Assembly: GCF_000003815.2 (NCBI RefSeq)
Contig: NC_049985.1
Coordinates: forward strand, 21,713,945 to 21,777,944
Direction: 5' to 3'
Source: Branchiostoma floridae
Lineage: Eukaryota > Chordata > Leptocardii > Amphioxiformes > Branchiostomatidae
Length of the DNA stretch: 64,000 nt
Both the position numbers and the translations under genes were made by a program. Under the pieces are notes generated by a model that ran no database searches, was not told the origin of the DNA, and saw only the letters and a list, made by a program, of their open reading frames with translations. Positions 14,313-61,187 of this stretch are shown here, in pieces; positions within the stretch are counted from its first letter, which is position 1; every line of letters begins with the position of its first letter.

Positions 14313-17300
14313 TTGCCGCTGTCACCGCTCTCGTGATTAGTTCATGTTTGACAAAACGGCAGACAGTTTTTTCTTGTAGGATGATGGAGTGCTTCTTCCA
14401 CGTACTGTCCGTTCTGTTAGACTGTTCCTTGTTCTTCTGGTATCTCTTGCTAGATTGTCCTTTATTCTTCTGATTTCTCCGTTTCTCCAACTTCTTCAAC
14501 AGCTTCGCACTCCCTCCTTCCGGCTTGTTGTTCTTTGACCGATTTTCTTTGCCCTTCTGGTGTGATCTTGCGGTGGAGGCCTGCGGTCTGGTAGATGCGG
14601 TACGCTTACTTTTCGCTTGACGGCGCTGCTCTGCAGTGCTGACCTCTATGAATAGAAGCGACCCGTCTGGCTGTATGTGGTTCACCCAGGGTGGCGTGAT
14701 GGTACTGTGGGGTGAAAACAAAAGAATAAAAACCCAGGTTAGATTTGCCGTTGAGACAGGGTAACATATTCTGGAAAATCAGTTTCATTCTTTCAGACCT
14801 TTATTGTGCCTACCGCCAAGTTGTCGTTTTGTTTCAGTAGCAAGGTATACTTTTCACTGGGAGGATTTTAACGAGCTTGAAGCACCTCGACGAATCCGGA
14901 CCCCATTTTCCGTCCCTTCCGAGTACTGCCCTAACCAAGGTGCTCTTACCAGGATTTAACCAGTTACCAACTATTTTAAACCATGCTCAGCTGTGAGGCT
15001 TCTACCGGTTGAGCCACAGGGACATCCTTTCTGAGGAGATGTTTAAACCGTATAAACATGTATATAAGTATCACGTATATAAGTATCACGAAATTTGCTT
15101 GTACATTTGTTTAACTTTTCGACGGATAACTTTTCTAACGCCTATTTTTTCACGGCTACCATGTACTGGAATAAACCCAAAGAGAAAGGGTACACAGCCG
15201 CCAGCTTCTTTCTATTGTTCACAAGATTTGCTTCTACACCAGTAAACGTAATCATTTCTTCGCTTTCCAAAACAATTACAAGGGATTAACGCGCTGAAAA
15301 GACGCAATTTTGAAGGAATTCATCCTTTTTATGATCACGAACAAGAGATTATGAACCCCATTGAGCAGAGCACAAAGTGGGTCACTTTTTAACGAATAAT
15401 TGGCTTCTCTAATCTCGGTAATTTTGCGCTTAAGTACTCTGGATCACAGAAATATGATTTGTTACAAAGAAAGGACTTGGTTTTTGTACAGCTTTCCTTC
15501 CAAACGTTGGTTTATGTAGAAGAGTTAACAGTTGGCAATGCTGTCACGCGATATCTAAATACCTGCAATTATGCCCTTGAAGTTATAACATATGCTGTTG
15601 TTTGACGTCTACACTTCACAGGCAAACATATTAGTGAAGTAGAATTAATTTTGTTTGGGTTATCCGTAACCCGCATTGGCACCTACAAATTAAACCATCT
15701 CTTTGATCATACTACGCTACTGCATTAACCCTATTCAGACGGGGGGGGGGGGGGCTTTTGAGGCCCGCGCTAACTTCGATGTCCTATAACGCCAGAACGG
15801 CTTACGCTAGAGCCACTAAATTTAGTGAGTTTTCCTAAAATATTGTTGGCAACAATTCTACGAAGTTTGACAAATTTTCCATTTTTCTTGTTGCCATGGC
15901 AACCGTTTGTTGACAGGCAGTTTTGCCAAAAATCACTATTTTTGGTTCTAACAATGTATTTTTCAAATTTATTTGCTATATTACTGTGATTTTGTTACAT
16001 AAATAAAATCTTATATTATTCAGCATATCTTTCATAATTATATATGCATAAATTATGCTAATTTGATGACGTCATCAGCCCAAAATCCAAGATGGCGGAC
16101 GGAATGGCCAGATCAAGAAAAACAAGCAAATTATCCCTTAAAATTTGCAACTACCTGGTATTTTTTCATCAAAAACCATCTAAATGAATGAATTTAGTCT
16201 ATTTCCATTGCCCTTTGTGATTATTTGTTGCAAAAAAAAGTATTTTTAAAAATTCAAGGTGGTGGATATAATATGGCGGAGCCCAACTCGTATCTTAGAT
16301 GTGCATGACGTCATTTTATGACGTCATATTGACGTCATTGATGTTGATATTGGCAACGCAAGTCGTAATAAACATTATTATTCTGTTATCTGCACTTGTT
16401 GTTACATTTTTGCAGCATAACTTGAAGTTTTCTGAGAATACCCATTTTTCAGGGGTTTGGTCAATGTAATCAAATTGATGACGTCATAATTACGTCATCT
16501 TACGTAAACGTAATGTCAAACGTCACATCCTTGTCAGATATTATGTCAAAATCATGTCCTCAAAATTTGGTGGCCCTACGGCACGTCGTTTTAGAGTTAT
16601 AGGACTTAGAAGTGGAGGGCCTCAAAAGCCCCCCCCCCCCCCGGTCCAGGGATGACCAAAAAAGCCCGGTCTGAATAGGGTTAAAAGAGTTCAAAGGCGC
16701 TCTTGACAAAGGTTGGGAATATAAGAGATTTTGTCGAGTTTCCTTCGTTCGTCTGTAACCAGCAATTGCATATGTGCTAATATCCGGTAACGTTGAATCT
16801 GAACAAAGAGGGCCAATTAAGGTTTTAATTTTTCACTTTCCTTCCTGCAGAATAAAGCCGTCAAAGGCCTGCTAATTACAGAAGCTTATCGAGCAAATCC
16901 GGCTGAAACTTTCATTTTATCCAATTGGCCAGCTGTCGACAGCGTCTTTCTATGATCATGAGAGTACAACAAACTCATTAATATCCGGATCCGACAACAT
17001 GTTAAACGATATTGCAGGATTTGTGGGAACCCACCCCTTTATATTAAGGTGTGCCATTGTTTGCAGTTATAGTGACTGCGGCAACGGATACCGGCGTCCC
17101 TGCGTCGCAAATTGTGTTACCCTTGACTTCATAAAGGGAATATTATGCAAAGTGTACAGAACGACTGAAAAGACACAAAGCATTAATTTGTTTTTATCGA
17201 TAAAAATCGATCCACCGCAGCGAGGCTGCCAACGTGCTTCAGCTTCAATGAGATCCCAGCTTTTGTTATAATAGTTGTACTAGTATCATCTGGCTTTTTG

Positions 17301-19525
17301 TAACAAGAGTCATCGGCAGCTGTTCTGAAGTGTATGTGTAAGAAGAAGGTGGTCACATCGGCATTGTCAAAAGAAATAATGAATGGATGAAACACCAGCT
17401 GCATCGGCGAGCTGACATCAACACTAATTTTCGGATCATCATAAACAATTTGGCAGGGAAAGTGTCGGGCGAGAAATTGAGTATGTAAACCACCCAGTGA
17501 AAGGAACTAAAGGCCGGTTAACGCTTTGCCTACCAGATATTGCAACAGCTGTTTATTTCTTGCTGCCGAACACTATTATACAAGTAACAATTTGGTGTTA
17601 AACAGCCATACTCTGGATTCAGGTTGTAACGAGAGTTACATCGATCTAATAGAGCGCAGTGTATGTTACTTCGCGTTTTACAAGATAGCTTGGCCAAAAT
17701 CAGAATGAATTCCAAAATACTGCAAAAGTTGTCTTTTGGTGTTGTTGGGTAAAATGTGTTTTCAACTGCTTCAAAGACTACAACGAAAACTACCTGACAA
17801 CGCCAACAAGATGTAATATCAGCGTTTGCTTGGTCTTTTCATGGGCCGGACAATTGCAAGTTTAAACCACTGGGAGTCTTGCAGTGTGAAAAGAGGACAG
17901 CGAAGACTGTACACAACTGGTTGCATGACCAAATCCCGACACAGGCGACGTAACTCAATCTACAAGGGGCGCATAGCTCTCAAGTTACCGACTATATCCA
18001 AAATTGACATTTTTTTCAGTAACTCAGATGAAAATAGTGTCTCTTGGGAGGAAAAGGATGGGTAACAGGTAAGATATCTAGATGAGAATCTCTAAGTCGG
18101 CACTTGTTACCGGATTTGATGACAAGCGACATTTTTTCGGCAATTCAGATCAGAATAACGCATCGTCAACTCTCTTGGGATACGAAGGATGTATCCCTAT
18201 CTATTTTTACCGGATTTACAAGCAAGCGACATTTTTTTCAGTGAGCCAGATTAAAATTATTAAACTCTCTTGGGAGGGGGGATAAGGTGGATTTCCAGAT
18301 AAGAAGCTCTAAGACGGCTTCTCTATTGTTTCTGAAATTGCTGACAGGCTCCATATTTTTAGTAACTTCAATCCAAACAACGTCTCATGGGAGGTTCAGT
18401 GTGAATAATAAGGTGATAAGAAACAAAGACCAGATAAGTTCTAAGGCGACAGCTCTGCTGTTTTTAGAACAAACTCCCTTTCAAGACATTCACTTAAGTG
18501 GACACTATGACCTTTCTTAATGAGCTAGATAAAGGCAGCTTTGCTAAAGTGGATTTCTACTTTCCCTCTTGTTTATACTAAATACCTGGCACTTTCTTTA
18601 ATCTATGTTAACAAAATGACGCCTTCATACGGAAACGTAAGTAACAAACATTTCCTGAATCTAATACAGCAAGAAATTATTGTGATGAAAACAGAATTTA
18701 GAATGGAATTTTTTTTCAATAGGGTAGCTTCGGGCATATAGTATGTGTGCACTTTATAAATACATGGGTAAATGAAGGGGATTAACATAGCTGTATTTCT
18801 GTTGTATGTATACATTGTATTAAAGGAATGCACGCTATTTTTTCAATGTATGATTAGAACTCCTTCTAAACAAAGTTACCAACTTACATACTAGTAGATT
18901 GAGAGTCTACCTTAGGAGGAAGTTACTTTCGAAAAAATATGTCACCAATATGTACAAAATTCCAGAAATGCTTGTACTTATTTTCAATATGAAACATTAT
19001 ATCTATCAGTAAATTCAGTATGTATAATAAGACCCCCATTCCATAGACAGCGCCCGCGCTGCGTTCTCACTGCGACCTAAAACTGATCTGTGTAACCTTC
19101 GATTTCACACTGGGTATATCATGCAAAATGTAAAAGTGTGACTGAAAAGACAGCGAAACACACAAAGCGTAAAAAGATTCCTCTTTCTATACAATTTGTT
19201 GAACGATCTGTCGCAGAGAGAGTGCGGCGAGGGCGCCGTCCTTGTAGAAAGGGGAATAATCTATAACGAAAACTCACCATTTAGCGAGAATCATGTGCAT
19301 CGAGTCGAAGTCGTCCAGGCTGCGGGTCTTCTGGCTGAAGTACCGGCGGGACAGCGGCCTGTCCCGCGAGAAGAGCCCGTGAGCGCCCATGGACGCCCAG
19401 GGAACGGCAAGATCCAACGACTCCGAAGATGCCTCTGGTCGGAGCTGGTGGAGGTCCTGTTGCCGTGCGGGGCCGGTTGTTTGAAGCGGCGGCGGCGAGG
19501 CGAGTGGTGTTCGAAGGGAACCCAT
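14313..19525 (-). CDS. Inturned-like gene copy 1 (two exons visible, PDZ part not found)
   Basis: Exon 1 is 19525-19278: ATG in a strong context (AACATGG), 82 codons plus two bases, donor GTGAGT. Exon 2 is 14704-14313 (acceptor CACCCCACAG, donor GTATGT). The 2+1 phase joins without a break, giving 213 codons plus one base. Exon 1 contains HGLFSRDRPLSRRYF and FDSMHMILAK. Exon 2 opens PPWVNHIQPDGSLLFIE, matching the conserved W...G-LFYLE motif near the N terminus of Inturned, then becomes Lys/Arg/Gln-rich with an 11-residue tandem duplication (QKNKGQSSKRY and QKNKEQSNRTD). If the donor is not used, the frame stops at 14296. I could not find exons for a PDZ domain or the remaining Inturned body before TFIIIA begins at 11881. 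It is either a truncated paralogue or a pseudogene; the frame itself is intact. Confidence 0.6.
14935..15022 (-). mobile_element. tRNA-derived SINE head
   Basis: On the minus strand TGGCTCAACCGG (A-box-like, 15016-15005) is followed about 45 bases later by GGTTAAATCCT (B-box-like, 14961-14951). The spacing fits an RNA polymerase III promoter. It lies in intron 1 of Inturned-like copy 1; the 3' limit is unclear. Confidence 0.5.
15729..16680. mobile_element. piggyBac-like non-autonomous element with TTAA duplications
   Basis: TTAA (15725-15728) precedes CCCTATTCAGAC. The right end GTCTGAATAGGG is followed by TTAA (16681-16684). Subterminal homopolymers (G run near 15741, C run near 16629) and GGGCTTTTGAGGCC are also mirrored. 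A TTAA target with CCC/GGG ends is the piggyBac signature. No transposase. It contains five exact TGACGTCA motifs (16067, 16306, 16319, 16330, 16479) and a perfect RFX X-box at 15890. Confidence 0.85.
15890..15903. promoter_or_regulatory. Perfect X-box palindrome inside TTAA element
   Basis: GTTGCCATGGCAAC is two inverted RFX half-sites with a two-base spacer. RFX factors control ciliary genes. Here the motif is carried by the transposon in intron 1 of Inturned-like copy 1, so host use is speculative. Confidence 0.4.
17995..18410. repeat. Diverged tandem repeat, about 110-120 bp units
   Basis: Roughly four units share GCGACATTTTTTTCAGTAA, CTCTTGGGAGG and AGATAAGAAGCTCTAAG. Within intron 1 of Inturned-like copy 1; no conserved frame. 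Confidence 0.6.
19050..19215. repeat. Diverged relative of the CACTGCGG inverted-repeat family
   Basis: Contains GCGTTCTCACTGCGACC, TGACTGAAAAGACAGCGAAA and ACACAAAGCG, which also appear in degraded form near 17060-17225. Both have end motifs reminiscent of the elements at 26705 and 30068. It ends about 60 bases from exon 1 of copy 1. Confidence 0.4.
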
Positions 19526-20342
19526 GTTCGGTGCGTCCTGCTTGTCACGCTGTTTGAAGCGTTGTGAGAAGACACCGGTGTCTACCTGCCGTCCAAAGAA
19601 ACCACCCAGGGGGTCACACCTTGAGCGGAAGTATCAGGGCTTCAAAACCCCACAAAGGTGACAATGCGATCGATATCCTCATATACAAAAGTACGATGGA
19701 ACCTGGGTTAATATCATCAGCAGTGCTACATATCTACGGATTGTGATCAGAAATTAATGATACTCAGTAAAGAAACAGATATACTAGATGGTCTTTCGAT
19801 CTTTTGTGGATTCTAGATCAAAGTATCACAAGCCCCTACAGAGTAGAACTATAGTGCCACCCCCGGTAAGAAATCAGAGTTTAAGCCTAAGGGTACCAAA
19901 TGACATCATTAGATGATTAATATGACCATTCAAAAGACTACCCTGCCATCACCATTTCGCCTCCGGGGGAGACAAAAATAATACGTTCAAATTTGCACGT
20001 ACCAAATCTACTAGGGTAAGACAGAAAGTGCTACAGCATACGTCCAAACCTGCACGTACCAAATCCACTAAGATGAGACAGCAAAATGTTACAACATAGG
20101 TTGTTAAAATAAATGGACTCGCGATCAAGTCAAAAGGGTATAATGATTAGATTGTCTGCTTATCCATTAACCATCGGCGATGTAATTATCGATGATTCCC
20201 TTGGTGACATTCCAGTTTTCCGTCTTGAAACGCGAAACCAAACCTCTTAAGAAGAAGTGTCAAATATCAGATAACGTTTAACAAAGAGCTTAAAGTTTAC
20301 ACCGTCTATGCCGCTCTTCTTTAAACTGCTAATGGAGCAATT

Positions 20343-21640
20343 GAATGAATGAATTAAGACCTTTATTGTCCAATTGTCCCATTTAGCCCTAACGATCTAA
20401 GTACAGGTTACAACAACTTGAGACAAAACAAAATAACGCGTATACATATACATGTAAAAGTATCACAGATCTAGTCTAACACAGAAGTTCGACTTTTTCT
20501 CGCTTTTTGGTAATGGTGAAAATGTAGGATTGTATTGGTTTAGCAACAGGAACGCAGGAGGAATATAAATTTTTCAGTGATACTCATATGCCTTAGGTGA
20601 GGTTATTTACTTTCTATGTAACTAAATAGCATACTTCTATCATTAACATATGTAGTACAATCTACGAAGAGGTGCACTTCATTTTCTGCAGTGCTTGAGG
20701 TACAGATTTTTCTTCTTTTAATAGTTCTTTCTAATATATGCAGACTTTATAAACTTCTGATAATTGTCTTTGAGTAGCAATGTTGCGTGGTGGAGCACAG
20801 TGTCTAGATCTGATGAACAAACAACTAGCTACTAGCGTTTTAGAGTCGTTACTTCCATAGAAATTGTCCTCTTGGGGTCGGTACATGTAAATAAACCCCC
20901 TGCTGTTTTATAAGGTGTTTCTGGTCACTTAAAGTTATTTCTGGTCACTGAAATGGTGTTTCTGGTCATGTTGGATTCCCGTGATACCAATCAAAACCAG
21001 CAGGGGTCCATGACACAACTAAGGGTTAATAAACCGGGCTAAGTACAGGCAAGGATCTTTCATGGAAACTCCTTGGTACAGGTCAAAACAAAGACAAAAC
21101 ATACATGTAAAAGTATCATAGATCTCGTCTGGCACACAAGGTCGGCCTCTTCTTGGTAATGGTGAAAATGCAGGATTGCATAGGTTTATCAATAGTTGGT
21201 TTGTCAAAACGTTTGAGGAATATAAAAATTTCAGTGTTACTCATATGTCTAAAGTGATGGAATCTACTTCCTGTATACTATTAGCATATTTCTATCATTA
21301 ACATACATAGTACGATCCACGACTTCATTTTCCATTGTGTTTGAGGTAAAGATTCTTTCTTCTGATAATTGCCCATGGCTAGCACTGTTACGTAGGAGGA
21401 GAGTGGTGCATGAAAAAAAAAACTTAGACTTGATACCACGTTGTAGGGTCGGTACTAAGAATATCACAACAGGTGTCTTCTTGGGCTCGAGACATTAACC
21501 CCCTGCTGTTTTAGAAAGTGTTTTATGTCACTAGAAAGGTGTTGTGGTCACTAAAATGGTGTTTGTGGTCATGTTTGGGTTCCCCTGACATCAATCAAAC
21601 CCAGCAGGGGTCCATGACACAACTAAGGGTCAATGAACGG
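20343..21640 (-). repeat. Tandemly duplicated retrotransposon-tail region with CCCCTGCTG element
   Basis: Two diverged units (about 20343-21030 and 21040-21640) each contain ACATGTAAAAGTATCA then AGATCTMGTCT, TTTCTAT then CATTAACAT, and an inverted-end block (CCCCCTGCTGTTTT ... CCAGCAGGGGTCC, 20896-21008 and 21499-21612). The first unit begins with AATGAATGAATTAAGACCTT, a (TTCA)n-type 3' tail read backwards, as in CR1/L2-like LINEs. Related pieces: 22365-22665 (inverted), 32545-32660, 35340-35625. Confidence 0.55.
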
Positions 21641-21713
21641 TCAGAAGGGCAAGAAAGATTTATAATTATAGAGTGGTTGTTTCCGAATGAAAGCTCATCT
21701 GTGTTGATAAATT

Positions 21714-21863
21714 CTATATTGAGAAAAGTCTAAACTTTGTTCCAACACAAAAGGAAACTCACCATAAATTTTCGGCCAAAACTGACGAAGGTCGGAGTCT
21801 TTGGCCGAAAAATTATGGTGAGTTTCCTGGTTTCCTTTTGTGTTGGAACTTTTCTCAATATAG
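21714..21863. repeat. Near-perfect 150-bp palindrome
   Basis: TATATTGAGAAAAGT ... TCACCATAAATTTTCGGCC is mirrored by GGCCGAAAAATTATGGTGA ... ACTTTTCTCAATATA. Arms of about 60 bases, loop of about 20. A TATAGAGTGGTTGTTT direct repeat lies to the left (21665) and at the right edge (21860). Confidence 0.8.
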
Positions 21864-22364
21864 AGTGGTTGTTTTAAACATCTTGATGATCACACTTAGT
21901 CTTAGTTACACTTAGTCCTTATTTCATCCTGTCAGAGTAAAACCAAAACGAATGTATGTAGGATTTGAAATTACAGAGAATTCGCCCTCTTTTACGTTGA
22001 GTTCGCTAAAAAGAACTATTTTGAGGCTTCCCTGAATGAACGACTGTGCTTACAAGTGTGTGATACGTGCTTGAGATAATCGCATACATTGTGGTAATGT
22101 GCTTATAATGACCTTACCGCACTTTAAATCAATGAAAGAGCCACTAGTGATTTCTAGTGGTTGATTGTCTGCAATGTTAACCATTTTTCGTACATGTAGA
22201 ACGGAACTAAAGATGTGACAGGTAGTGAAAAACTGCTAGCCTCAACTTGTAGCCAATGTTGGCGTTAAGTTGATTCTGTCGCGTTGTAGATAGCCTTCGA
22301 ATGCACAATATTTAACTTACCCCCTCCACTAGAACAAAGAATGTAATTTTTTTTGCCTCGAACA

Positions 22365-22665
22365 CGGTAGAAGATGAAGTGCACTTCGTTGCTCATTGTG
22401 TTATGTATGGTAATGATGAAAATATCCTATTCAGTTATCTTAAAAGTAGATTCCCTCACTGTAGATATATGATCAATTTATAATCTTCATGCGTTTTTAA
22501 AAGCCGACTAAGGCTAAAGCCATTCAATCTAACATTTTCACCATTAACAAGAAGCGAGGAGAAGCCGAACTTCCGTGTAAGCCGGGTTAGTCAATGTTGC
22601 TTTTGTATAGTATGTTTTGTCTTTCTTGTTACCTGTATTTAACTCGGTTGGGGGAAAACGTACAA
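22365..22665 (+). repeat. Retrotransposon-tail fragment, inverted relative to 20343
   Basis: Carries GAAGTGCACTTCGTTG and TTTCACCATTAACAAGAAGC then GAGGAGAAGCCGAACTTC, the reverse complement of motifs in 20343-21640 and 35340-35625. No intact reverse transcriptase frame. Confidence 0.5.
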
Positions 22666-22928
22666 CTAATTATAAACATTCATTCTTAAAGCCGTCGGAT
22701 CATGAATTTCGCTTTGGCCTTTCTATATATGAAGTCGGGTTCGACTCTCTTAATAGCTTGAGTCTACTTGAGACTTAATAACTTGAATCTAAGGTCCTAC
22801 AAGTATGTTTAAATTGGTTCAAGATTTCGACCTTTTGCCAGGTTTGAAGCGATCTTTGGGAAACTACTTTCGGAATGATCACTGTAGGAATCCGCCGTGG
22901 AAAGATGAGAGTCCCAGACTAATAATGC

Positions 22929-43520: not shown

Positions 43521-43620
43521 NNNNNNNNNNNNNNNNNNNNNNNNNNNNNNNNNNNNNNNNNNNNNNNNNNNNNNNNNNNNNNNNNNNNNNNNNNNNNNNN
43601 NNNNNNNNNNNNNNNNNNNN
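43521..43620. other. Assembly gap of 100 Ns
   Basis: The run of N is exactly 100 bases, a conventional unknown-size filler. The 19 bases before it (43502-43520) are identical to the 19 bases after it (43621-43639). Confidence 0.99.
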
Positions 43621-44626: not shown

Positions 44627-47600
44627 ATGGTGGAGTCAGCGGCGGTTGTTCAACCACCTCTACGGGGCACATGTGGACCTCTCCCCGACTGGCTATCGGG
44701 TTGCCGCGGCCTGTTCTCTGTGGACAGTCCGCTTCCGAGAATCTTTTTCCCGCCCAGGTCTGTTGGCATGGCCGAGTTTGACTCGATCAGAATGATTCTG
44801 GCAAAATGGTGAGTACGTAATATAACTTGTTACAGTGCGTTTACTTCTGTTTGACTGAAATCAATGGTCTTTGTTCTTCTATTGAAAAGATGTATAATTA
44901 GCGCAAAAAATCGCCTGGCAAAACATCAAAATAGATTAGTTTTTCATAAATATTTTTTCTCAGAATTTTGTGATCTGTGTGGTGTGCTTCCATTACTACC
45001 TGTATAGGCCCCATCCATGAATTCCCACCCATGCGAAAACAAACTTTGTTGCCACTTCAATGGACTACAAAGTTGAACTTTCCTGTTAACATCAGTTGTT
45101 TCATGACTAAGTTCATATTTTTGTCTTTACGTAATACAACGTCGTTACCTTAAACTTTCAAACGCTTACCCGTCGCCACGTTGGATCTTTTTCCTGGACG
45201 TCAAAGCAAATATTTATTTTTACTTCTAATTTCTTTATACTTCTAATTCGGACACACAGCCCATAACAAAACAATACAAACATAAACAAATGTACCACAA
45301 GTAAACATACAACAAACCATATACGCATTAAAAGCGTATTTCTAAAATTGGAGTATAGAATGCATTTAAACACATTTTCCTTTGTCTGGTGTCAAAAAGT
45401 GTCGGTGATTGTGAAAAAAGATCATAGACCTAGCTCCGCAACCTTTTGGCAATTTCATCATTATGTGTTTTTCTAAACCACACGATATTTCACCTGTACA
45501 CTACTACTGTCACTAGAACTGACTATATTCCGCAGCTGCAGACCAAACATCTGGGAATTATAACCCAACTATACTAAAGCAGTGAAAGGCGTATTAAAGG
45601 TAACAAGAACGCGCGCATTCATAGCTCCTAGGGCCATATATGGTACATTTCTGGTATACGTACATGTATATATACTTTTATTGTAGATGACTACGACATT
45701 CCATTACTGAATGTTACATTCCAATGGCTCGCTGATATGCTCAAATTTTCTCGAAAAACAAAAGAACAGCACGCAGTTTTGAAAAACTGAACGACTGCAG
45801 AACCGTTGGTAAAGGTTATCATCAAAGTGCCATAATGATGACCAAACGTGTTACTATAACCGTTGAGAGGGGGGTCATTAGTGGACATAAACCGATAAAC
45901 TTTCAGACACAGACTCTGCCTGTGTTTTACGTTCACAGGTATAGCGTACTCATTTGTTTCAACTCCGGTAAGGAGGGTCATCTCATGAAGGAGTATTGTG
46001 GCTGGCCATGTTCTTTCGCCTTTGCTGCATAGACTTGTAGTCACAAGTTGGTATGTCGTCTGCTAGAATGCGCGGTGTTTGTGTTTACATTTTACACTGT
46101 AGCGGATTTATAGGTAATATAATATTTTAGAAAGCACCCTTATCTTCATGGAATTGTGAAACAGGATATTGATATTTATGTGGGTCTGTCCTACTGGGTT
46201 TTGTCCGAGCAAATGTTAGGTTATACGTTGTTTTAACGTATTTTGTCTAGCGGCTTATTTCATTTACATGTTATTATATATATACACCACAAAAAGGTTC
46301 ACTGTGAGTCATTGAAGTCGATGTTTTGGGTAACACTAAATGGATTTGTGATTACTGATGTTTGTTCACCTTTGTCATGAAAATAAGTTTTTGGTTATTA
46401 CCATCAAGAAAGCAATCACGAGGAGGCTTGTTTATAAAGATATAGAACTAGAATAGGAGTTTTCAGCACAGAACATCTTTCTGAAATGTGTACTATGCGG
46501 AAGAAAAAGTGCGATTCACTTCTATTGTAGCGAAAATCGATCGGACGACGATTCTGCGGCAATCGCCCGAGCCTCGCATATGATAATAACTTTATTGCAC
46601 AACAATTGTACAAGGTGCAAAGTATGGCTTATATGTGATAGGGCTAGGGACGGTTTTCGGGTGAAAAATACGCGCAACCCTCTGTCGATCTTAAATATGG
46701 CCGATCTTCAATCGATACGCCCGAAAATATTGCATATTTGCTGTGAAGACAGTGATAGTTTCGCAAAATAAAAGTAGACACAGAGTCTAACATTTAAAGA
46801 ATAGAGTCGCAGCAGTAAAACCTACTAAAGTAGACTATTTCACATGGACGCCCCTCCCTCTACCTCGAGGTTTTTCTACAGATCCTTTGTTTCAGGCGTC
46901 TGAAAGAACACATAAAACAACAAACACTACCTGTGTCTCCTGTTTTCAAGCGCAGCGGGTGTCCGCTACTGTCTGAACGGAACCTAAACAAATCAAAGCA
47001 ATAAGGGATTAGGAATCGGGTCAGAATCTCGTCGTTTGCAATAAATCTGCCAGAGAACACCTATCTCGTCTGGACCCCCTCCCTACTACCCCAAGGTGTT
47101 GTTGTATAGATCCTTTGTTTTAGGTGATTCGAGGAACTCAGAAAAAAACACAGACAGTGCCTGTGCACAGCTGGTATCCTCGTCTGTCGGAACATTACTT
47201 AAAACATCAAAGTAAATGCTGAAGGTAGACAGAATTAAAGAATAGGGCCGCTGTTGTAAATCGTTCAGCGAGAGCCCATTTCATTTGGACCCCCTACCCA
47301 CCACCCCAAGGTGCTTCGGCGTATCTTTTGTCACCGGTGACTTCAAGACTTGATGACGGATGAAAAAATGAAACTTTTTTATTGTAAGTTTATGCTCTAA
47401 CAATTTAAGTACAGGTCTTGGTGATAAATTACGTCTAGGTGCAATTATAGCAAGGACGTGGCGTCTTGCTGCTTCTGCAATGGTTAGTCCATACTAAATT
47501 TTAGTATGAACAGGTTCAACTTCTCACTTCCCTAAGACAGTTGTAAATGTAGGGACAGATATATGAATGAATGAATGAATTTATTGCTCAACCATCGCAC

Positions 47601-50600: not shown

Positions 50601-53600
50601 TAGAAGTAAAATACTCCATCAAACAGATTCATCTGTAGCGAAATGGATCATTGTTTTGAGTGTTGCCCATTCACAAGTTTTCACAAACAATTAGGTGCAG
50701 GTTCAGGTCCGGATCTGGACCTGGTATTCTGGACCTGGACCGTACCTGTTCCTGGATTTTCTGTACCGGGTTCCACCTAATCTCCAAGCAGACGGTGGCA
50801 TTTATGAGATAGTATCATCAGCCTGGGAAGGTCAAAGAAGCTCCTCTGTCGGCTAAACTTCTTCCAGGAAACTTATGATACTACTGTAAATGCATTTAAG
50901 TTCGCGGGGATTTAATTTCGCGGTAGCGGGAAGATGACTTTTCGCAGTGGTTTTAAGTTCGCGGTAACACCGTAGACTACAGTCTAATACCATAATAGAA
51001 AAATGTTCGCGGTGGATTTAAGTTCGCGGTGAAGTGGTCAACGCGAAAACCGCGAACATTAATCCACCGCGAACATTTCTGAATTTACAGTATCTTATGC
51101 CAACGCAAAATCTGCTTGGAGATTAGATCCCACCCTTTTGACAGAGAATCCGCATGGAATAGCAACGACCATTTACAAGACGGAAATTAGCGACGCCGGA
51201 GGCACTCTCTATTGTACGACTCACTCCGTTGGTAGGTTCTGTTGTTGAATTTTGTCCGCGTGACGCTTTTTCTGAGAAGAAAGTGACAGAGAACCATCGC
51301 CGCTGGAGGCAATTTAGTCATCTTTAGGCTGTTTGCCGCGAAGAACAAAGGAGAGTTAACATTGTGTCAAAAACAACGTACAGCAACTAGGGAAAGCAGG
51401 CGAAGTGTAATACCCGGTACCCTTCTGGAATTATGTTTACTTAGTAGATGTTACCGACTTGTTGCACCGTTTTAAACGGCGAGAGATGCTCAAAATAGAC
51501 CTTAAACAGACAATACAATTTTCGCCATCAGACATGTGTGCGGCTAGTTTAAATTGATCGTAGGTAACAAGTAAATATATTAATCCCCATCAGACAACAT
51601 CCGGGGTTGGAGTTGATTGATTGAAAATAATGCGGATATACATTCGTTCATTCATGTAGTCTTGGACAATACGTGCCGAAGAAGCTTCACCAGGTGCACG
51701 TGGCCTAGTCTTCATTGGACTAGTTAAACTGTAATATCCACCACATAAATTGGACTCACCCAAATTTTTTTACTGAACAACACCAGTTTTTGTCAAGGAA
51801 TGAACAATCCACTGCCGTCGTGACGTCACGTTATGCAGATAGAACACGTGACTCAGTAAGCAGTGGATCATGCGTTGCAGGAAGTCTATGGCACCCACCG
51901 TCTCTGTTTAGGGATGGTTGTAAAACTCTGATGTAGATGGCTTCTTTGATCCCTCTAGCAAAAAAAAGTCTGGTTCTATGTCGAAGATTTCAACTTTGTC
52001 CAGTGAAACCGAATGACCCGGTGATTTATGTGGATATGTTGGGAAGAAACTTCTGAGGTTGTTGAACTCCGGTGTCTGTGTTTAAGGAACCTGGTATTGA
52101 GTGATCTCTCAGTCTCCCAATCTCTCAATTATGACTTCTACCAACACAGATAAACTTTCAAGTTAAGGTGGCCTAGTCTATATATGTGTGGCGTCAAATG
52201 GTCGAGTGGGTAGGCCAGTGGACACAAGATATGCTAGTCGTTGTGTCCATGGGAAAGGCCCTTCATCACATGACTTTCCTCGGGCGTAAGAAAATATGGG
52301 TATCTTGCTTCTTTGGGCGCTCTGCCTCCCAAGAATATGCCCTAGACACATAGGATAACAGTTCACTGCACCTATTCATTTATTGCTGTGAATTTTCATG
52401 GAAAAATATTGATGTTCAATCTTTTGCACCTCCCTCTTGTTTAAGACACGAAATTTCCAGATCATTTAGATGATGATAGGTTTGAAGCCGGTAGAAAGCT
52501 ACCGGTATAAAGCCACCATACCAGCATGGCTATCACATCAAAATATATGCCACAGGCCGTCTACTATTCAAAAATAACAAGGAGAATGTACCACCCCGGA
52601 GGGCAATGATATGTGAAATTTGGGGTCCTGGCCCATGGACTAAATTCCCCTACCTACCCTTTTCTTTACGTTTATATAATCAAGGGGGTTTCCAAACTAT
52701 TCATGGTTTTGGAGCGTAATAGAAACTGTGAGCACGCAGTACATATCAATGAGTCGCGGTTAAACTGCCCTTCGGCGTAACACACCAGCTTCACAGAAAC
52801 TATATTTTTCTGCATCTAGCGACTTGATACACTTTACCCTTGCCTACCTAGCTACACAATGTCTTAGAATTATAAGAACTACCGTCTTAAGACCCCCTAA
52901 AGTAGTGTATTCTAACGGACAGGCAAGGAAAGTAATTCGTCTATTCATGTCGCTTAACTCACCTCTTTGTTTATGAAAACTGACCGCACATGTATCGTTT
53001 ACATTGTAATTACATATTGACGAGTCTATAATTGCATATTTTTGCTACTCTCTGTGTCAAATTGACACCAGAAGAGCACATTTTCACTTTCATATTCATG
53101 AAGATTATTTAGATTTCAAGCTAAATTTTGTAGGTTAATTCTGAGCTAACAGTAACATGACAGCTGTTTAGTTGATTAAAACTTTGCGTACCGAGGTTTG
53201 TTTTCTCTTTTTAAGTAGTCACTGATGCCAACAACGAGGGGATTACAACTCCATAAACAATAGGCTACTGTTTGAAAGTGGTCTTCTTTCATTGATCAGT
53301 GAAATCGTTAATCCTTTAAATCCTCTTTAATCCTATCTAAGTACCTGCGGATTAAGACGAACCCACCTGTCACTTTTGATTCATTTTGCTGTAATTACGG
53401 GCAGGCAAATTAAAGGGGCATTCCACTCCACACGGAGTGTTATTTTCCGATAGATATCAATTTTAGGAAGTGATAACTGCATACTACTTCACATTATACG
53501 ATAAAGTACTCAGTTGCTCCACATGCCTCAAAAGCATTCAGTCTTTTACTAAACTCCCCAAGTACCCTCTAATTGAATTAATCCTATGGCTGAATACAAT

Positions 53601-56600
53601 GCAAAACTTTTAGGTAAGGTTACAAAACTAATTTTAGGTTCGCTAAGAAATCTCGTTTGTTCTTGTATTCTTTGCTATCTTATGAGAATTTTGCCTTCTC
53701 GGTGTGCTTAGCGTACCTTATTTATTCCGAAAATATGTACGATAAACAAAGTGTCTATGCGTATAGGGAATGCATGGGTAGGGTCTGCATGGGTTTAGTG
53801 AGTGTCATTATTGTTTCATAAAACACACATCACGTAATCCATCCCAAGTGAATTCCACAAAATTCGGCTGATTGTGTATTCATTGACACATTATCTATTG
53901 GAAAACAAGACTCCCTTCTGGAGTGGAATGCCCCTTTAAGGTTTGTGTCAGTAAGCACAGATGGATGAACAGACTCGACCAGATCTACGACCAGAATGTT
54001 TTTTTGGTAAACATGATTGATTGCATCATTTATCATAATTGAAGACGAAGTGTCCAGATAAGTTTGTAATGGTTAAATAACATTCGTAAAAAAATGCATT
54101 TACACGGCCTATCCGCTAGGGGCTGCAAGTGCAGCCGCCCTAAAACCGAAATCGCTCAGCAAATTTTATAGATAAAGAACGATTTTTTTTACATCTCAAG
54201 CCCTTTGTTGTCGTTTTATTTATCCATTAGTTTGTCTGTAAAATCAAGAAATATACGTAAATTATTCTAGCATGCTCACAACTAATTAATTTTACGCTCC
54301 GGGAGTTTTGCTGTCTTTTATATATCAGAATAGAGTTAATTCCAGTTATGGCGGCCATGTTGGATTTCTGGGGTCATCTGGGGTCATGGCACCAGAGCGA
54401 GACTGCAGATGTTGGCAGCTGGGCATTCTACTATATAGGCTGTATTGCAGACATAAGTATGTCATCTTCGGGAGTGCATTTCACCCCTCTAAGGTTAAAT
54501 ACTGCACAATATATGCCTGTTATCTGTAGATACCCACAAACTGCCCGGGCGGGCACCGTTTGGCTAACGTTACATTTCCAAATCGGGACCCGGCCGGGCT
54601 GTTTGTGGAAACAAAAATTGAAATATATACATAACATATGCCCCAAATGATGACCATGACTACTCTCTTTACGTCGGGTGTTGTTTGATGTCTTTTTATA
54701 ATACTTTTCGTTCCCGAAAACTGCCCGGCCGGGCCCCGGTTTGGAAATGTGACATAGGTCTTTGGAAATGTGACATGACAAATTTTTTCTGATCTTTCCC
54801 ATTTCTTACAGTAACGTACAATCCGAGTGGATAAAACACGTGCGTCCGGACGGGTCTTTATTCTACCTGGAGCCAAAACCAGATCCGGATTTGAATCCGG
54901 ACAGAAGACCCGGAACAATTAGACACAAAAATAGCAACGTAAAACGGAGAAGGAATTCTGGCATAGAGGACGACCTTGTACGAGGACAACGGAAATCTAG
55001 TAAGGTCATAATATCCGTGCTTCGAACTCTTTTGAGGAAGAAAAGCGGAAGAAATGGCCATTATACCAATGGATCTGGACTCAATAGAGAGAGGACAATG
55101 TACGCTTTAACTAACTACGCAGAGTTACAGAAGTTTCACGTGCGGTTAAAAGTAGACCCAAGAGGTGGCGGGAATTTACTGGACGGAGTCTTTCCGATAG
55201 AAAAACTGACAAGAGTTGAATGGTTATCGGAGGACAGCGCAAACTATCACTGCAGTGGGAAAAGAATCTTCGTCGAAGATCTACCGGAGTATGGAGCTTT
55301 GACAAGACTTTCGAATCTACGGAGAGGTATGTGACACTAAGTATGTCCACTGTTCCAAGTACGCATGCGCAGCGACAGGCATTGTGGGTAAAATGTCAAA
55401 GGTGAAGGCTCCAAACGTGTAAACAGTTCTCGTCTCGGCCATTGTCTCCTTTTATGGAAATGTCCAAATGTTTGTTTATGTCTCGGGGGCTTTCACCTTT
55501 GACATATTACCCACAATTCATGTTCCTGTACACGCGCACTCGCGATTGTGAGTTTGTGACCGCGCTTGTAGTTTTAGTTCATTCTGATATTCCTCTAATT
55601 ATCATATTTCAGGGTTCAAAAAAGGAAATGACGTCTACATATACAAGCACGGGCTTGTATATAAACGAATGAATGAATGAACTTTATTGCACAACATTTG
55701 GACATGGTACAATTGTAAGGCAACAGTAACAAGTCAATTAATACAATGATACTCGTCTAAGTTCTATAACTGCATACAAATATAGTATAGAAATGTGAAC
55801 ATAAATGTGATATTTGATCCGCATGATCCTCATGATTTCCGTCACTTCCATACCATCTTTTAAAATAGTCGAACCAGTATTCCGGCCACAGCTAGGGTCT
55901 GGTACTAGTATACTGACTGCTGTGTGTATGAATCTCCTGCCAGTTGAGTGTGTTCTTGAGGGAGGTTCGGTAGCGTTGAACAAATAGTTCAAGCTTACTT
56001 GCTATCGACTGTTTGTAAATGTCTTCCCTGTGCCTGTACGATAAATCAAATGAATCATAATTGCTATTGACAGTTTCAAACGGTAAATATCTGCCCTGTG
56101 CCTATACGACAGGTGATTGTATCTCGGCCCTGAATGACATCCCGGTGACCCGTGGTAACCTCAGCCGTCTGCTGGCGGCCATCTCTCAACCTATGGAGGT
56201 AGGATACCCGGAATGTGGGACAAATGACCTACAAATGTCGAGTCGACATAGTTTAAGTGGACGTCTCCGTGGTCTAATTCCACCAGTGACAAGTATTTGA
56301 AGCCTCCTTTGTGCACCTAGATGGAAAGAGAGATAGAGAGGCCGGACACAAATATCTGAAACGAAGCAACTGGTCATACCGAATCGACATTTTCAACATT
56401 CTAACCTCCTTGATTTATCTAAATCTATCAAAAAGGAGTTTGTAATATGTCATCAAAAGAAATCGTCACTTTTGATTGTGAGCATATAGTAATTCAGTTA
56501 GATATCGTGACAACAAGCCCTCCCATACTAGAATAATGTAAATGTGCATTTGTTTATCCCATTTATCTATTTTAATGATCATTTTGGCTGAAAAAAGAAA

Positions 56601-56947
56601 ATAACGAACAATTCTGACGTAAATATCATGCCAGTGTCTGTTATCATGCAACGGATTTATGACGTCATTATCAGACGACTTTTATCATGGTAAAATAAGT
56701 ACGTATCTGAGGTAAACTCTGTGTGGAAAAAGTCTGACCTATGTTCAAACATGTCCTTCTGTAGGTGACTCTGACGATCGAAAGGTCACAGAAGGGAAGT
56801 CTACGCATGCGCAACGCCGTGCATCAGTTGGACGCTGTTCCGGAATCCAGCTCAGATGGAGCGCATGCGCAACAGAGAGAATTATTGTTTCCGTCCAATT
56901 GGTCGAAAATGGACCCAAAAGGCCAGACGGCGAATCTTAGATGTTGA
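44627..56947 (+). CDS. Inturned-like gene copy 2, four exons, ends after PDZ-like segment
   Basis: Exons: 44627-44808, 54812-55326, 56113-56198 and 56765-56947 (TGA). Donors are GTGAGT, GTATGT and GTAGGA; acceptors TTCTTACAG, ATACGACAG and TTCTGTAG. Phases join cleanly, giving 321 aa. Exon 1 contains RGLFSVDSPLPRIFF and FDSIRMILAK. Exon 2 opens SEWIKHVRPDGSLFYLEP, matching the Inturned W...G-LFYLE motif, and continues through a basic stretch to VEWLSEDSANYHC. Exons 2-4 encode a PDZ-like fold: GKRIFVEDLPEYGALTRL, then GDCISALNDIPVTRGNLSRL, then PMEVTLTIER. These align closely with the Inturned PDZ (GDVLVAVND..VT..N). Vertebrate Inturned is about 940 aa; here the frame ends 50 residues past the PDZ, and AATAAA follows at 57128. 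I infer a truncated paralogue (expressed or decaying), not a full CPLANE subunit. Exon 1 is 10 kb away and less certain than exons 2-4. Confidence 0.7.
46578..46625 (-). repeat. Retrotransposon 3'-tail fragment
   Basis: ATAACTTTATTGCACAACAA then TTGTACAAGGTGCAAAG closely resembles the starts of 47565 and 55668. Confidence 0.45.
46800..47350. repeat. Three diverged tandem units of about 200 bp
   Basis: Each unit has a version of TTTCACATGGACSCCCTCCC, CTACCCCAAGGTGTT, AGATCCTTTGTTTYAGG and CACTACCTGTGTCTCCTG-like text. Non-coding. Confidence 0.65.
47565..47670 (-). repeat. Retrotransposon 3' tail with (AATG)n
   Basis: TGAATGAATGAATGAATTTA then TTGCTCAACCATCGCACAAG; on the minus strand this is a (TTCA)n-terminated 3' end as in CR1/L2-type LINEs. 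Matches 55668. Confidence 0.55.
49620..49820. repeat. Dispersed repeat with GGTCTGGACCTGGACC, copy 1
   Basis: Shares ATTTTAAAACGNCARTRGA, CACCAAACAGAATC, GTAGCAAAGTGGACCATTG and a GGACCTG-rich end plus TTTTCTGTACCGG with 50575-50770. Confidence 0.65.
50094..50155. repeat. (TG)n microsatellite
   Basis: TGTGTGTG with GGGTG and TCTG interruptions. Confidence 0.9.
50160..50315 (-). repeat. Single CTCGAGTTAT-family monomer
   Basis: AGCATAACTTCAGAACCTCT, TGATATTTAGTAAGTGAATG and ACTGCAGCAGAACTTCCGGA are the reverse complement of the 34300-35330 unit. Confidence 0.55.
50575..50770. repeat. Dispersed repeat with GGTCTGGACCTGGACC, copy 2
   Basis: Second copy of 49620-49820, about 950 bases downstream in the same orientation. 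Confidence 0.65.
50779..51125. mobile_element. TAATCTCCAAGCAGA inverted-repeat element, host of a nested MITE
   Basis: TAATCTCCAAGCAGA at the left and TCTGCTTGGAGATTA at the right are exact complements. Most of the interior is the TACTGTAAATGCA MITE at 50882-51092. Confidence 0.6.
50882..51092. mobile_element. MITE, TACTGTAAATGCA family (copy 2)
   Basis: TACTGTAAATGCATTTAAGT then TCGCGGGG at the left and CGCGAACATTTCTGAATTTA then CAGTA at the right. Internal GCGGTGGATTTAAGTTCGCG. Same orientation as copy 1. Confidence 0.8.
51895..52095 (-). pseudogene. Penelope-like element endonuclease relic
   Basis: Minus-strand translation in shifting frames gives NTDTGVQQPQKFLP, then SPGHSVSLDKVEI, then RGIKEAIYIRVLQPSLNRDGG. 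This is the kind of text found around the GIY-YIG endonuclease of Penelope-like retroelements. At least two frameshifts (one at a T/A homopolymer near 51958-51967) and an in-frame stop show it is dead. Confidence 0.6.
52185..52330 (+). mobile_element. Degenerate SINE fragment
   Basis: TGGTCGAGTGG (52199-52209) fits an A box. CATGGGAAAGGCCCTTCATC and GACTTTCCTC echo the SINE body at 29050-29085. The B box is not recognisable. Confidence 0.4.
53414..53935. mobile_element. TTAA-flanked MITE with AGGGGCATTCCACTCC ends
   Basis: TTAA at 53410-53413 and 53936-53939 bracket AGGGGCATTCCACTCCA and its complement GGAGTGGAATGCCCCT. 522 bp, AT-rich, no transposase. The TTAA target suggests piggyBac-type mobilisation. 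Confidence 0.85.
54563..54759. mobile_element. MITE, GGCCGGG family, next to exon 2 of copy 2
   Basis: ACGTTACATTTCCAAATCGG then CCCGGCCGGGCTGTTTGTGG at the left; CTGCCCGGCCGGGCCCCGG then TTTGGAAATGTGACAT at the right. A related half-end (CTGCCCGGGCGGGCACC) precedes it, and a second GGAAATGTGACAT follows. Confidence 0.8.
55378..55523. repeat. Hairpin repeat in copy 2 intron 2
   Basis: CATTGTGGGTAAAATGTCAA then AGGTGAAGGC is mirrored by GCTTTCACCTTTGACATATT then ACCCACAATTCATG. Confidence 0.7.
55668..55745 (-). repeat. Retrotransposon 3' tail with (AATG)n
   Basis: GAATGAATGAATGAACTTTA then TTGCACAACATTTGGACATG; same family as 47565. Confidence 0.55.
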
Positions 56948-58546
56948 CCACTGACTAAAGTCGCCAGGTGGCGCCATTGAGCGCCCAAAACTGCCTTGTC
57001 AAATATCTCATACTTCAGTTGCAGTCAAACCTGTACAAGTGACCACCTTTACGTAAGGACTACATTGCCAAAATGACCGCTTTTTGGTGATGGTCGATAG
57101 ATAATTTTTCCATATGCACAATCATAAAATAAAATGTGCAGAATATAATCCTGTCCACATTTTATCCGTCCCCTGAGCGGTCTTCTGGAGCAATTTCAAG
57201 TTACTAGTACTGGACATGTATTTCATTGTTGCTCGTTATGTGGACGCCAGTATATAAATCAGAAAGAGTTCATGAATAGTAAAACTATAATGAACTGCTG
57301 CTAGAAATATAATCTGAACAGTGTATATTTGTTTACTCGTTAGAGCCCAGCATCTACTAGAATAATTCATTTTTGACTGTACACGTATTCTGTGGCCTAG
57401 TGACCATGTAGTCGCTACCCTACTATAAACCCTACTACATACAAACAGTTGAAAGTTTGCCAAATAGATTAAAACAGATTCCAAAGTCAATGAAGAAGAA
57501 GGTGTGAAAGAACAAAAGTGAAACTCGTTGTTCGATATTCCATGCTTTTTGTGTGTAGTCATTTGTTCAACCTTCTTGACCACTTAGATTTCATACTGAA
57601 GGCAACTTTTTTTGTGACACCTTTTTTTTTGTTATACGCACGATTCGTTTTGGGGTTCCCAGAGGATGTTATTCATGTAATCAAATCAACGTGGCTTAAA
57701 TGTGCTGTTAACTACGGTTCACCTTTTCTTTGCCATTGATGTCTCTTATCGGTGTTACACCGGAAATTAAGAAGGATTTTCACGAATTCTTAAAGTTAAA
57801 AGAAACAATGTCCCCAAGGCGTTTTATTCTTCTCAAGTGTCTGTCTTAGCAGTGTTAAAAAGAAAAGACAACTGTTACTGATAAGACTGTGAGCCCCGCT
57901 AAGATACCTCAGGTAAGGAATCCAGAACTCGCGTTTACCTGTGCGGATGTGTACTATTCCCAGTAGGGGGTGGGAGGGGCGAATCACACACGGTAAGTGT
58001 CTGGGCGGAACGCTCTAGGCAAATTGGAACAACAAAAACAAAGCCTACAAATTACAAATGACAGTTCGTTGGTGGCTCGCACTCAACACTGTACTTTACA
58101 TGTAATTTTGAGAGTGTACAATACTACTAGTACCGATAGGAGATAGAAAATTTATAATCATTTTTAATATGGTAAATGGCAGGGATTTCATATTTCAGAT
58201 ATGAGCTCGAGTAGCTTTTCAAAAGGCAAATTCAAAGAAATATGTGTTGTACTCCTTTGCACCTAATGTACATGAATAACGACGTCGTTTCATCCCCCCT
58301 TTATTAATGATTGGGAAATAACCTGCGTTTTCTCGAAAATGTTGCCTTTCTAGTGTCTAAATGAATTGGCAAGAGCACACTGGGGTCGACGGCCGTGTGA
58401 CCATTGACCTTACTGTTGTTTCCTATTGGACTATTCAAATTTTCAACGTCTTTATATATCTCTTCATATTTAGGGTGTAAGCCCAAGACTTGCTCTGGTC
58501 AGTGTCACTAGTACTGACAGAAGGTCATGAAACAAGAAATATCTGA

Positions 58547-58684
58547 TACTGTAAATGCAGAAACTTTCGCGGTGAATGTTCGCGGTTTTCGCGGTGGCCA
58601 CTTCACCGCGAACTTAAAAACCACCGCGAAGGGTCTTTTTCCCGCTACCGCCAAATTAAATCCCCGCAAACTTGATGCACAGTA
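58547..58684. mobile_element. MITE, TACTGTAAATGCA family (copy 3, inverted)
   Basis: TACTGTAAATGCAGAAACTT then TCGCGGTGAATGTTCGCGG at the left; CCACCGCGAAGGGTC and TAAATCCCCGC at the right, opposite in orientation to copies 1 and 2. Confidence 0.75.
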
Positions 58685-59327
58685 GTTTCCAAAATCACAT
58701 CCAGTTGCTTGAGTATCTGTTTATTTAGCGTCTAACCTAAACAAGTAGTTACATGTACATGTGGCAAAGTTCCGCAGTCGTGTGAATAGGGCAAAATTAC
58801 ACTTGAAATATCCCTTTCATAGTCACACATATTGTACTTCAGTTCTTCAATCCGTTTCTATCGGTGTTGAGGCACCCTTTGTGAGATCCAAGACCGCTGA
58901 AATCAACTGTTTGTTTGAAACTTGCCGAACGAATAATGAAAAAAGGAGGGTTGTACTGCAGCGCAACACAAGACCATTGGATGATACAAAACGGGCTCAA
59001 TCGATAACAAAACGTTATTTCTAACACTTTTCAGGGAGGTATTTGTCGTGAGCAAAAGATCAAAAGTCGCACATGATCACGTGACATACCTGTCTGTTTA
59101 CGTAACCCTAGTATTTCACATGTCACCTGTTTCGTGCCAAACACACAGTACTTATTTGTTGTTGCTTGTGATCCATCGGTAAGCAAATCACTCTGTTGTT
59201 CACACAAAGTTGATACACCCACTTTAGCTAGTCTCTTTCAGACTAACTATATACGCTGATTACCCTATACTATAGGGAGGATAATTTGCTAGGCCCAGGG
59301 AGTTTTGCCACCCAAACTGGCCAAATT

Positions 59328-59670
59328 CCCCTTTTTGTCGAATTCTACAATCCTTTCCTTCGAAGGAAGGCCTGGTGGACGCTGCATTTTAGCCATTTTA
59401 GCCGTTTTGTAATTACAAAAGTGTACGGGACGGCCTTTCAGCAATAACTATTGACTAATCGGTCGTAAGAAATAATTCACCTAGAGAGGGTTAGCTTTTT
59501 GTCCAATTGTACAATCCATCCCTCCGAAGGAAGGTCTGGTGGACGTGCTACATTTTAGCCTTTTAGCCGTCTTGTAATGACAAAAGTGTCCAAACGTACT
59601 GGACGACCTTTTAGTGATATATTAAATTATTGACTAATCGTTCGTAAGTGATAATTCACTCAGAGAGGGC
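59328..59670. repeat. Tandem duplication, about 170-bp units
   Basis: Two copies share GAATTCTACAATCC/CAATTGTACAATCC, CTTCGAAGGAAGGCCTGGTG, CATTTTAGCC, ACTAATCGGTCGTAAG and TAATTCACCTAGAGAGGG. Confidence 0.75.
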
Positions 59671-59713
59671 TATCTTACCTGGATACTGTGTGTCACAGTA
59701 GACCAAGTTTGGA

Positions 59714-59899
59714 GACCCTGGAAAACCAGACTTTTTGCCGGGGTCAGCAGAGAATTTGTTCTGTAGTCAAGGCAGGTTTTCCCGAGGACCTTAGATAAAC
59801 ACACCGGAGATTTGTCGAGCTAGGTCCTCGGGAAAACCTGCCTTGGCTGCCGAAAAAAGTCTCTGCCGTCCCTGACTAAAAGTCTGGTTCGCCAGGGTA
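59714..59899. mobile_element. Inverted-repeat element with CCCTGG ends
   Basis: CCCTGGAAAACCAGACTTTT is mirrored by AAAAGTCTGGTTCGCCAGGG. An inner pair CAAGGCAGGTTTTCCCGAGG / CCTCGGGAAAACCTGCCTTG is exact. The element folds on itself almost completely. Confidence 0.75.
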
Positions 59900-60993
59900 G
59901 ATACAAACTAATAGATTATTCTTTATACTATCCCTGTACTTTTAACTCTGCTCTCAAAGTTTCTGTCACTACTGACGGTTTTGTCAGTTATACACTTGAA
60001 TTGTTTGATGCTTACGTAACCAGTGTCCAAGCAGATGGTGGGAAAGGGTCACAACATTGTAAATATTTATAGGTTGTTTTATGAGAAGAGAAGACTTTGA
60101 GAAAACAAAAGGAATACGTGACAAGCTTACAGTTCACCGTTTTCTGAATGACAACACACAACAACCATTAACATAGCCTCCGGCTAGGCTTCAGTCTGAA
60201 AGACATTATTGGATTCTAGAAATAGTGTTTTGGGCGATGCCATTTGGCAGAGGGATGCGGGGGTGGATGACTTCACTTGTAAAGGGTTTGTGCGTTTTCT
60301 ATATAGGCTTGCAAACTCTATATGGTCATAAAAACCAATTAAAATGGATAGGACATGCTGCATTTATGACTCGCGTTCATGTATACAAAAAAAATGAATG
60401 AATTATTCTCTCTTTGAGTGAAGGAAATATTCTGCTTCTTGACAGCCCCTAGCCCCTCCCAAAAAAAAAATTTCAACAAATTTCACTATTTCCTTGCTGC
60501 TACCAAAGCTGTTGTCCCAACAAGCAAAAAGAAGATTGCATTAGGTTTATACACATTCTAAACCTAGGATGACACCCCCCATATGCAGTGAAATCGCCCA
60601 GGTATCACTGCACACATCGCAGTTGAAAAGTGAGAGCTGTCCTAGTCTCTCGGGGCTTTAGGCCTGACGTGTTCTATATCTCGTCCCTTGTTGAGCAAAC
60701 AACGGCCACAGTCGTTCAGACAGGTGTAACGTTACGGGGATTCGTGGAACCGAATCAGAACGCGCTGTGTTATATAGAAGGAGCCGCGATAGACAGTGAA
60801 AAGAACGAGTCGCTTCTTCTTCAAAAGTTATAAGCTTACGCCACGGTGGCAGCAGAGATTCGCGTGTTAAGGGTGGATTTGTCTCTAATCTTACCCGCCT
60901 AAAGGCGATGTTTCACGGAAAATTTAACTAACTGTTGCCCGGCACACGGTGGGGTTAGTAGTCGCGACAGGGCTCGGAGGCGGCCGCCCCAAG

Positions 60994-61187
60994 ATGTCGG
61001 AGTCCGGCGATGCGCCACCGCCGCTGCTACCGGAGTTGAAGCGGCAGGACTTGGAGCTGCTCCGGTGGTTGGCCGTGTCGCACCACGGCATGTTCTCTCG
61101 ACACGCGCCGCTGCCGCGGTACTACTTTCGCCGGTCTACAAAACACCTGCCCGACTTCGACACCATCGGCATGATCCTGGCAAAGAG
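60994..61187 (+). CDS. Inturned-like gene copy 3, first exon only
   Basis: ATG at 60994, 64 codons plus two bases, donor GTAAGG at 61188. The peptide MSESGDAPPPLLPELKRQ leads into LLRWLAVSHHGMFSRHAP, then LPRYYF and FDTIGMILAK. It aligns along its length with exon 1 of copy 1 (AHGLFSRDRPLSRRYF, FDSMHMILAK) and with the C-terminal half of copy 2 exon 1, and ends in the same phase. The exon is GC-rich and unbroken, and the upstream region has promoter-like CpG density, so this may be the functional full-length locus, with exon 2 beyond position 64000. The Inturned link comes through copies 1 and 2, because this N-terminal module itself does not match the vertebrate Inturned N terminus as I know it. 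Confidence 0.65.

Follow-up and report, generated by a model that had tools for sequence, protein, structure and literature searches.

The window, by which we mean the whole stretch of DNA analyzed (64 kb of Branchiostoma floridae, C7:21713945-21777944, NC_049985.1), carries exons of three putative genes that begin with a related first exon, designated copies 1, 2 and 3. Coordinates given without a contig refer to positions in the window. The exons modelled for the three copies are the following:

13306..13397, minus strand: weak candidate for the last exon of copy 1, 30 residues followed by TAA, with an acceptor and phase that fit
14313..14704, minus strand: exon 2 of copy 1, a WW-like motif and then a basic linker, with no detectable PDZ
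19278..19525, minus strand: exon 1 of copy 1, 248 nt (82 codons plus 2 nt), from ATG to a GTGAGT donor
44627..44808, plus strand: exon 1 of copy 2, 182 nt, from ATG to a GT donor, 2 nt over
54812..55326, plus strand: exon 2 of copy 2, a WW-like motif, a basic linker and the first half of a PDZ
56113..56198, plus strand: exon 3 of copy 2, 86 nt, the second part of the PDZ
56765..56947, plus strand: exon 4 of copy 2, the last PDZ strand (VTLTIER), a short tail and a TGA stop
60994..61187, plus strand: exon 1 of copy 3, 194 nt, from ATG to a GT donor, 2 nt over

Copy 1 is separated from copies 2 and 3 by a run of 100 Ns at 43521-43620, which has the usual form of a scaffold gap of unspecified length. 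The distance and orientation of copy 1 relative to the other two copies consequently depend on the scaffolding, and its inverted orientation is provisional. Copy 1 is immediately followed on its own strand by C2H2 zinc-finger exons resembling those of TFIIIA (2544-11881, minus strand), for which TFIIIA_zf was the best model at 22.4 bits, below its cut-off of 27, and which we infer to form one gene; toward the end of this gene, a long open frame contains repeats of 96/147 nt (2710-3140). A palindromic element of ~185 nt (59715-59898, self-inverted at 79%) is possibly a MITE, and a minisatellite with units of 137 nt (61199-61766) lies within the first intron of copy 3. There were no matches at the gathering score in an Rfam scan.

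The sequence-only reading of this DNA had described three related first exons with an identical end phase, and all three were found at the positions given above and end in phase 2. Their pairwise identities were 20/39 for copies 1 and 2, 26/54 for copies 1 and 3 and 18/39 for the remaining pair, the local alignment scores were 91, 126 and 80 against maxima of 45, 53 and 49 in 2000 shuffles per pair, and 18 positions were invariant in the three-way alignment. The conserved core of the exon comprises ~33 residues, with the shared motif reading HGLFSRDRPLSRRYF...FDSMHMILAK in copy 1. A tblastn search of the window with copies 1 and 2 gave first-exon matches with E < 1e-3 at the exons of copies 1, 2 and 3 and nowhere else. 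A known domain was ruled out as the identity of this exon, as no Pfam family was found for any of the three and the best E in the PDB profile search was 1.4. A recent duplication that would have left copies 1 and 2 with shared introns or flanks was also rejected, the comparison having returned a single match of 49 nt at E <= 1e-3, located at the end of exon 1.

The four exons of copy 2 give a complete model of 321 aa that ends in a stop codon, with an AATAAA 180 nt past it. It had been proposed from the sequence that the copies are divergent and shortened relatives of Inturned, and that exons 2-4 of copy 2 match the W..G-LFYLE motif and PDZ of that protein, and the relationship was borne out: the best match of the full spliced copy 2 in a phmmer search of the PDB was 'Protein inturned' (E 2.1e-10), starting slightly upstream of the WW-like motif and ending with the PDZ. 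The same protein was the best match (E 5.7e-6) for a rough query consisting of exon 2 and the PDZ part of exon 3, without exons 1 and 4 and with an extra residue where the two are joined. Because the match of the full model continues across the join of exons 3 and 4 (VTLTIER vs VKLTFEN), that join is supported as well. The WW-like motif, basic linker and PDZ stand in the same order in the short copies as in Inturned (PDB 9rs8, 7q3d, 7q3e and 9t1r). Copy 2 scored below the Pfam PDZ cut-off (15.3 bits vs 27), as did human INTU (23.7 bits) and the N-terminal part of the INTU gene on C3 that is described below (17.7). A search of the genome (513,431,437 bases, 431 contigs) with copy 2 listed nine matches at E <= 10. 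Four of these were the exons of copy 2 itself and two were the first exons of copies 1 and 3, and the others were PDZ exons on C3 and at C7:8471357 and one match on C15.

A fourth copy, c4, was modelled outside of the window:

C7:8466747-8472437: c4, with exons at 8466747-8466838, 8470275-8470771, 8471367-8471452 and 8472318-8472437, encoding 264 aa

The earlier description of the family as local is too restrictive, as c4 lies 13 Mb away on C7. The exon phases of c4 are 2, 1 and 0, so that its four-exon plan, phases and early stop are as in copy 2. It carries the shared first exon, for which none of 2000 shuffles scored as high in the comparison with each of copies 1, 2 and 3, making this exon common to all four short copies, and it carries the WW-like motif, with the stop codon coming soon after the PDZ. 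The best PDB match of c4 was again inturned (E 1.9e-13) and its PDZ exceeded the Pfam cut-off (PDZ_6, 31.3 bits vs 27). A PDZ of the INTU type is accordingly present in c4 and, as judged by the PDB match, in copy 2, and the WW-like motif N-terminal of the PDZ position is present in copies 1, 2 and c4. Unlike copy 2, c4 has no AATAAA or ATTAAA within 800 nt past its stop. There is a run of 100 Ns 1.3 kb to the left of c4 exon 1, and next to c4 is an open frame (C7, ~8478150-8479162, minus strand) with SNIFGAA-type repeats, which we take to be reminiscent of Jupiter/HN1 proteins. The genome search with c4 listed 14 matches at E <= 10: its own four exons, two INTU exons on C3, exon 2 of copy 1 (E 0.012), exon 3 of copy 2 and six others (C2 twice, C4, C5 twice and C6), which we tentatively took for unrelated PDZ proteins or chance.

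The second exons of copies 1 and 2 had been reported to share their start and end phases, and this was upheld, as each begins by completing the phase-2 codon and ends in phase 1. The only direct similarity of note between these two exons is a motif of 15 residues, W..H..PDGSL...E, with 8/15 identical (score 63; 1 of 5000 shuffles as high). Residues 51-185 of copy 1, which represent the end of exon 1 and much of exon 2, are 33% identical to c4, with a blastp E of 7e-18 as computed in a set of only five sequences. The copy 1 model had no match in the PDB at E <= 10 by phmmer, and no PDZ was detected in this copy by Pfam, by the PDB search or by a scan that extended to the TFIIIA-like gene. In that scan, the 2.4 kb before the TFIIIA-like gene were examined acceptor by acceptor, and an overlooked PDZ exon was rejected based on a best score of 24, compared with 42 for the best of 16 control stretches and 150 for the genuine third exon of copy 2. 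The control values of 42 and 39 came from short segments, in unrelated frames, that matched the human PDZ query. The candidate last exon of copy 1 is followed by an AATAAA ~150 nt past its stop and showed no homology above controls. As such, the third exon of copy 1, and with it the apparent loss of its PDZ, is weakly modelled. For copy 3, no second exon was found in the remaining 2.8 kb of the window or in the DNA examined farther to the right, beyond the stretch adjoining the window. We consider that, of this family of short paralogues of Inturned, the window holds two members and probably a third.

It had been suggested that copy 3 is the start of a full-length parent gene lying beyond the right edge of the window. 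This was not supported, and the full-length gene that was found lies on C3:

C3:29067685-29087654: full-length Inturned orthologue, one gene found

When human INTU was searched against the whole genome, all 11 matches at E <= 1, among the best candidates that were scored, lay within C3:29069111-29087651, on a different contig from the window. The exons identified there by a local tblastn search cover most of human INTU residues 35-942 in order, which identifies the gene as the full-length orthologue. Its last exons read YWVVG/R, EVFVCF and EMAFKLLF, close to the C-terminal motifs given for Inturned in PMC4818920, which are (Y/F)WX(V/I)GR, EXY(V/I)C(F/Y) and EXAF(R/K), with F for Y in EVFVCF. 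The genome searches have known gaps: the search with human INTU did not list the C3 exon with the WW-like motif even though the local tblastn finds it, the search with the first exon missed c4, and a search with the longin-1 family yielded three loci on C13 and C11 but not the C3 gene. The C13 and C11 matches are probably CCZ1/HPS4, both of which that model covers according to its description.

Copy 3 is known from exon 1 alone, and the DNA directly to the right of the window lay outside the analysis, which leaves some room for copy 3 to begin another full-length Inturned, from which the short copies would derive. We regard this as very improbable, given that the human matches are confined to C3 as described and that the C3 gene does not have this type of first exon. 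Its first coding exon, with an ATG at 29067685, passes the splice point of the paralogues, that is, the acceptor of their exon 2, in an open frame, and the part of it upstream of that point is unlike the shared first exon. In keeping with this, the shared exon was rejected as a homologue of the beginning of either C3 or human INTU, as 167-930 of 1000 shuffles scored as high in eight comparisons. Moreover, no convincing longin exon was identified in the DNA examined around the short copies, nor any second exon of copy 3.

The longin side of Inturned was searched for with ten queries, three from human INTU and seven from C3 INTU, one of the latter being the exon just after the PDZ. No convincing exon was found in the 64-kb window (best E 0.055), in 30 kb around c4 (best E 0.010) or in the flanks examined, while the positive control on C3 worked. 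Given this result for copies 2 and c4, and that both models stop right after the PDZ, we designate the short copies as relatives of Inturned and not Inturned proper. The C-terminal Inturned motifs are likewise absent from the short models. Compared with Inturned, the short copies have no longin domains, a different first exon and lengths of 243-321 aa vs 942 aa, and they occur in several copies; the C3 gene, unlike them, includes the WW-like motif in its first coding exon and has both longin exons and the C-terminal motifs. A segment at C7:8473217-8473333, 780 nt past the stop of c4, is similar to the final exon of INTU (E 0.010 in the search with ten queries). It ranked first of 4807 segments in 142,550 bases with a score of 79, the next being 66, in a ranking that took the human and C3 last exons together and for which the query was picked after the match had been seen. 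The frame of this segment does not follow from c4 exon 3, and an AATAAA lies ~50 nt behind it. It is possible that the segment is a trace of the lost C-terminal part, or a chance match; were it a trace, the longin exons of c4 may have disappeared at a later time, or c4 may be spliced differently from its model.

With regard to the mode of duplication, a PDZ exon 3 of 86 nt with equal phases occurs in C3 INTU, copy 2 and c4, and the end phase of exon 2 agrees as well, which means that DNA and not a processed RNA was duplicated. Among the sequences compared, c4 is most closely related to C3 Inturned (37% across the N-terminal part). In a tree of six N-terminal parts copy 1 joined c4 (91/90), and copy 2 was placed elsewhere at weak forks (44/0 in the six-row tree and 38/7 in a five-row tree). 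The branches of copies 1 and 2 were long. Since the tree is weak for copy 2, a single origin of the short copies rests on their shared first exon and splice site.

At the acceptor point of the paralogues the C3 gene reads CAG, in an identical phase and preceded by a pyrimidine-rich stretch, as might be expected if the shared first exon were the ancestral start of amphioxus Inturned and the C3 gene had changed, an alternative that is otherwise compatible with our explanation. By tblastn, however, human INTU aligns with the C3 exon from human residue 35 onward, upstream of the WW-like motif, so the longer frame of C3 may be the older state. In addition, no convincing match to the first exon was found around the C3 gene (best E 0.020, over 18 residues), nor beyond the short copies elsewhere in the genome by a non-exhaustive search that missed c4. 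We therefore consider an ancestral start of this kind improbable.

The codon positions bear on whether the short copies have been maintained as genes. Identities at positions 1, 2 and 3 were 0.50/0.57/0.30 between copy 2 and c4 and 0.58/0.69/0.38 between c4 and C3 (chance 0.25-0.28), and over the six pairs computed, third positions agreed at 0.30-0.40 (chance 0.25-0.29) and positions 1 and 2 at 0.44-0.72, although reading the codons on amino-acid alignments favours positions 1 and 2. In the first exons alone the third positions agreed at 0.41-0.49. The pattern apparently fits old duplicates under protein-level constraint. A copy 1 without a recognizable PDZ, a copy 3 known from one exon, the missing longin exons and the long branches of copies 1 and 2 are also what decaying pseudogenes would present, that is, fragments of partial duplications that are open by chance. 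Such decay seems unlikely to us, as the conservation of positions 1 and 2 with third positions near chance suggests that the reading frames are long-surviving, the four-exon structure of copy 2 and c4 is intact, with phases and splice signals retained and no in-frame stop, and the first exon is conserved across the four copies.

On balance, we think it likely that the short copies are paralogues that represent only the N-terminal part of Inturned and share a new first exon, that they descended from INTU by DNA duplication and that the longin exons were lost. In the sequence of events that we envisage, INTU DNA would have been duplicated with the exon structure of the WW-like and PDZ region kept, and an ancestral partial copy would have lost its start. 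A new first exon would then have been spliced to the CAG within the old exon, now used as an acceptor, with the phase-2 junction immediately ahead of the WW-like motif. The longin exons would have been lost, leaving copy 2 and c4 to end after the PDZ, and copy 1 would also have lost a recognizable PDZ.

Inturned is used in building cilia, as a subunit of CPLANE and a GEF for Rab23, and its longin domains carry the exchange activity, which it exerts together with Fuzzy. The carboxylate loop of a PDZ has the form x-hydrophobic-G-hydrophobic, and the loop, as placed by eye, reads LVGI in human INTU, LLGI in C3 and c4 and LDGV in copy 2, so that peptide binding by the PDZs of copy 2 and c4 is plausible. 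The front part of Intu contains a PDZ and a WW-like region, and Rab23 exchange activity depends on its first longin pair (PMC6864590); in our own reading, the W..H..PDGSL...E motif corresponds to the WW-like region named there. A short product with the front modules only should thus not be an exchange factor. Inturned is described as having three longin domains (PMC7703760), its PDZ is not visible in cryo-EM maps (PMC12383261), and it is reported to interact with NPHP4 and Daam1 (PMC10824913). The role that we tentatively favor for the short proteins, judging from their predicted domains, is that of a putative longin-free adaptor, or a competitor of Inturned for its partners, which would act through the WW-like and PDZ modules, and we infer that the short genes are expressed.

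In the survey of PMC4818920 (Table 1), every animal group with the protein has just one Inturned name, the comb jelly is marked 'No', and there is no column for amphioxus. A search at the level of titles found no paper on Inturned in Branchiostoma or amphioxus, which does not in itself show absence from print. More speculatively, a cephalochordate family may have split the recruiting half of Inturned (the WW-like region and PDZ, with a new N-terminal module) from the Rab23-GEF half, and natural longin-free competitors could then tune the output of CPLANE and planar polarity in particular tissues. If our reading of their origin holds, the short copies would be an example of a partial duplicate recruiting a new first exon, and if conserved, the separated front half would provide a natural test of the WW-like and PDZ modules without the exchange-factor half.
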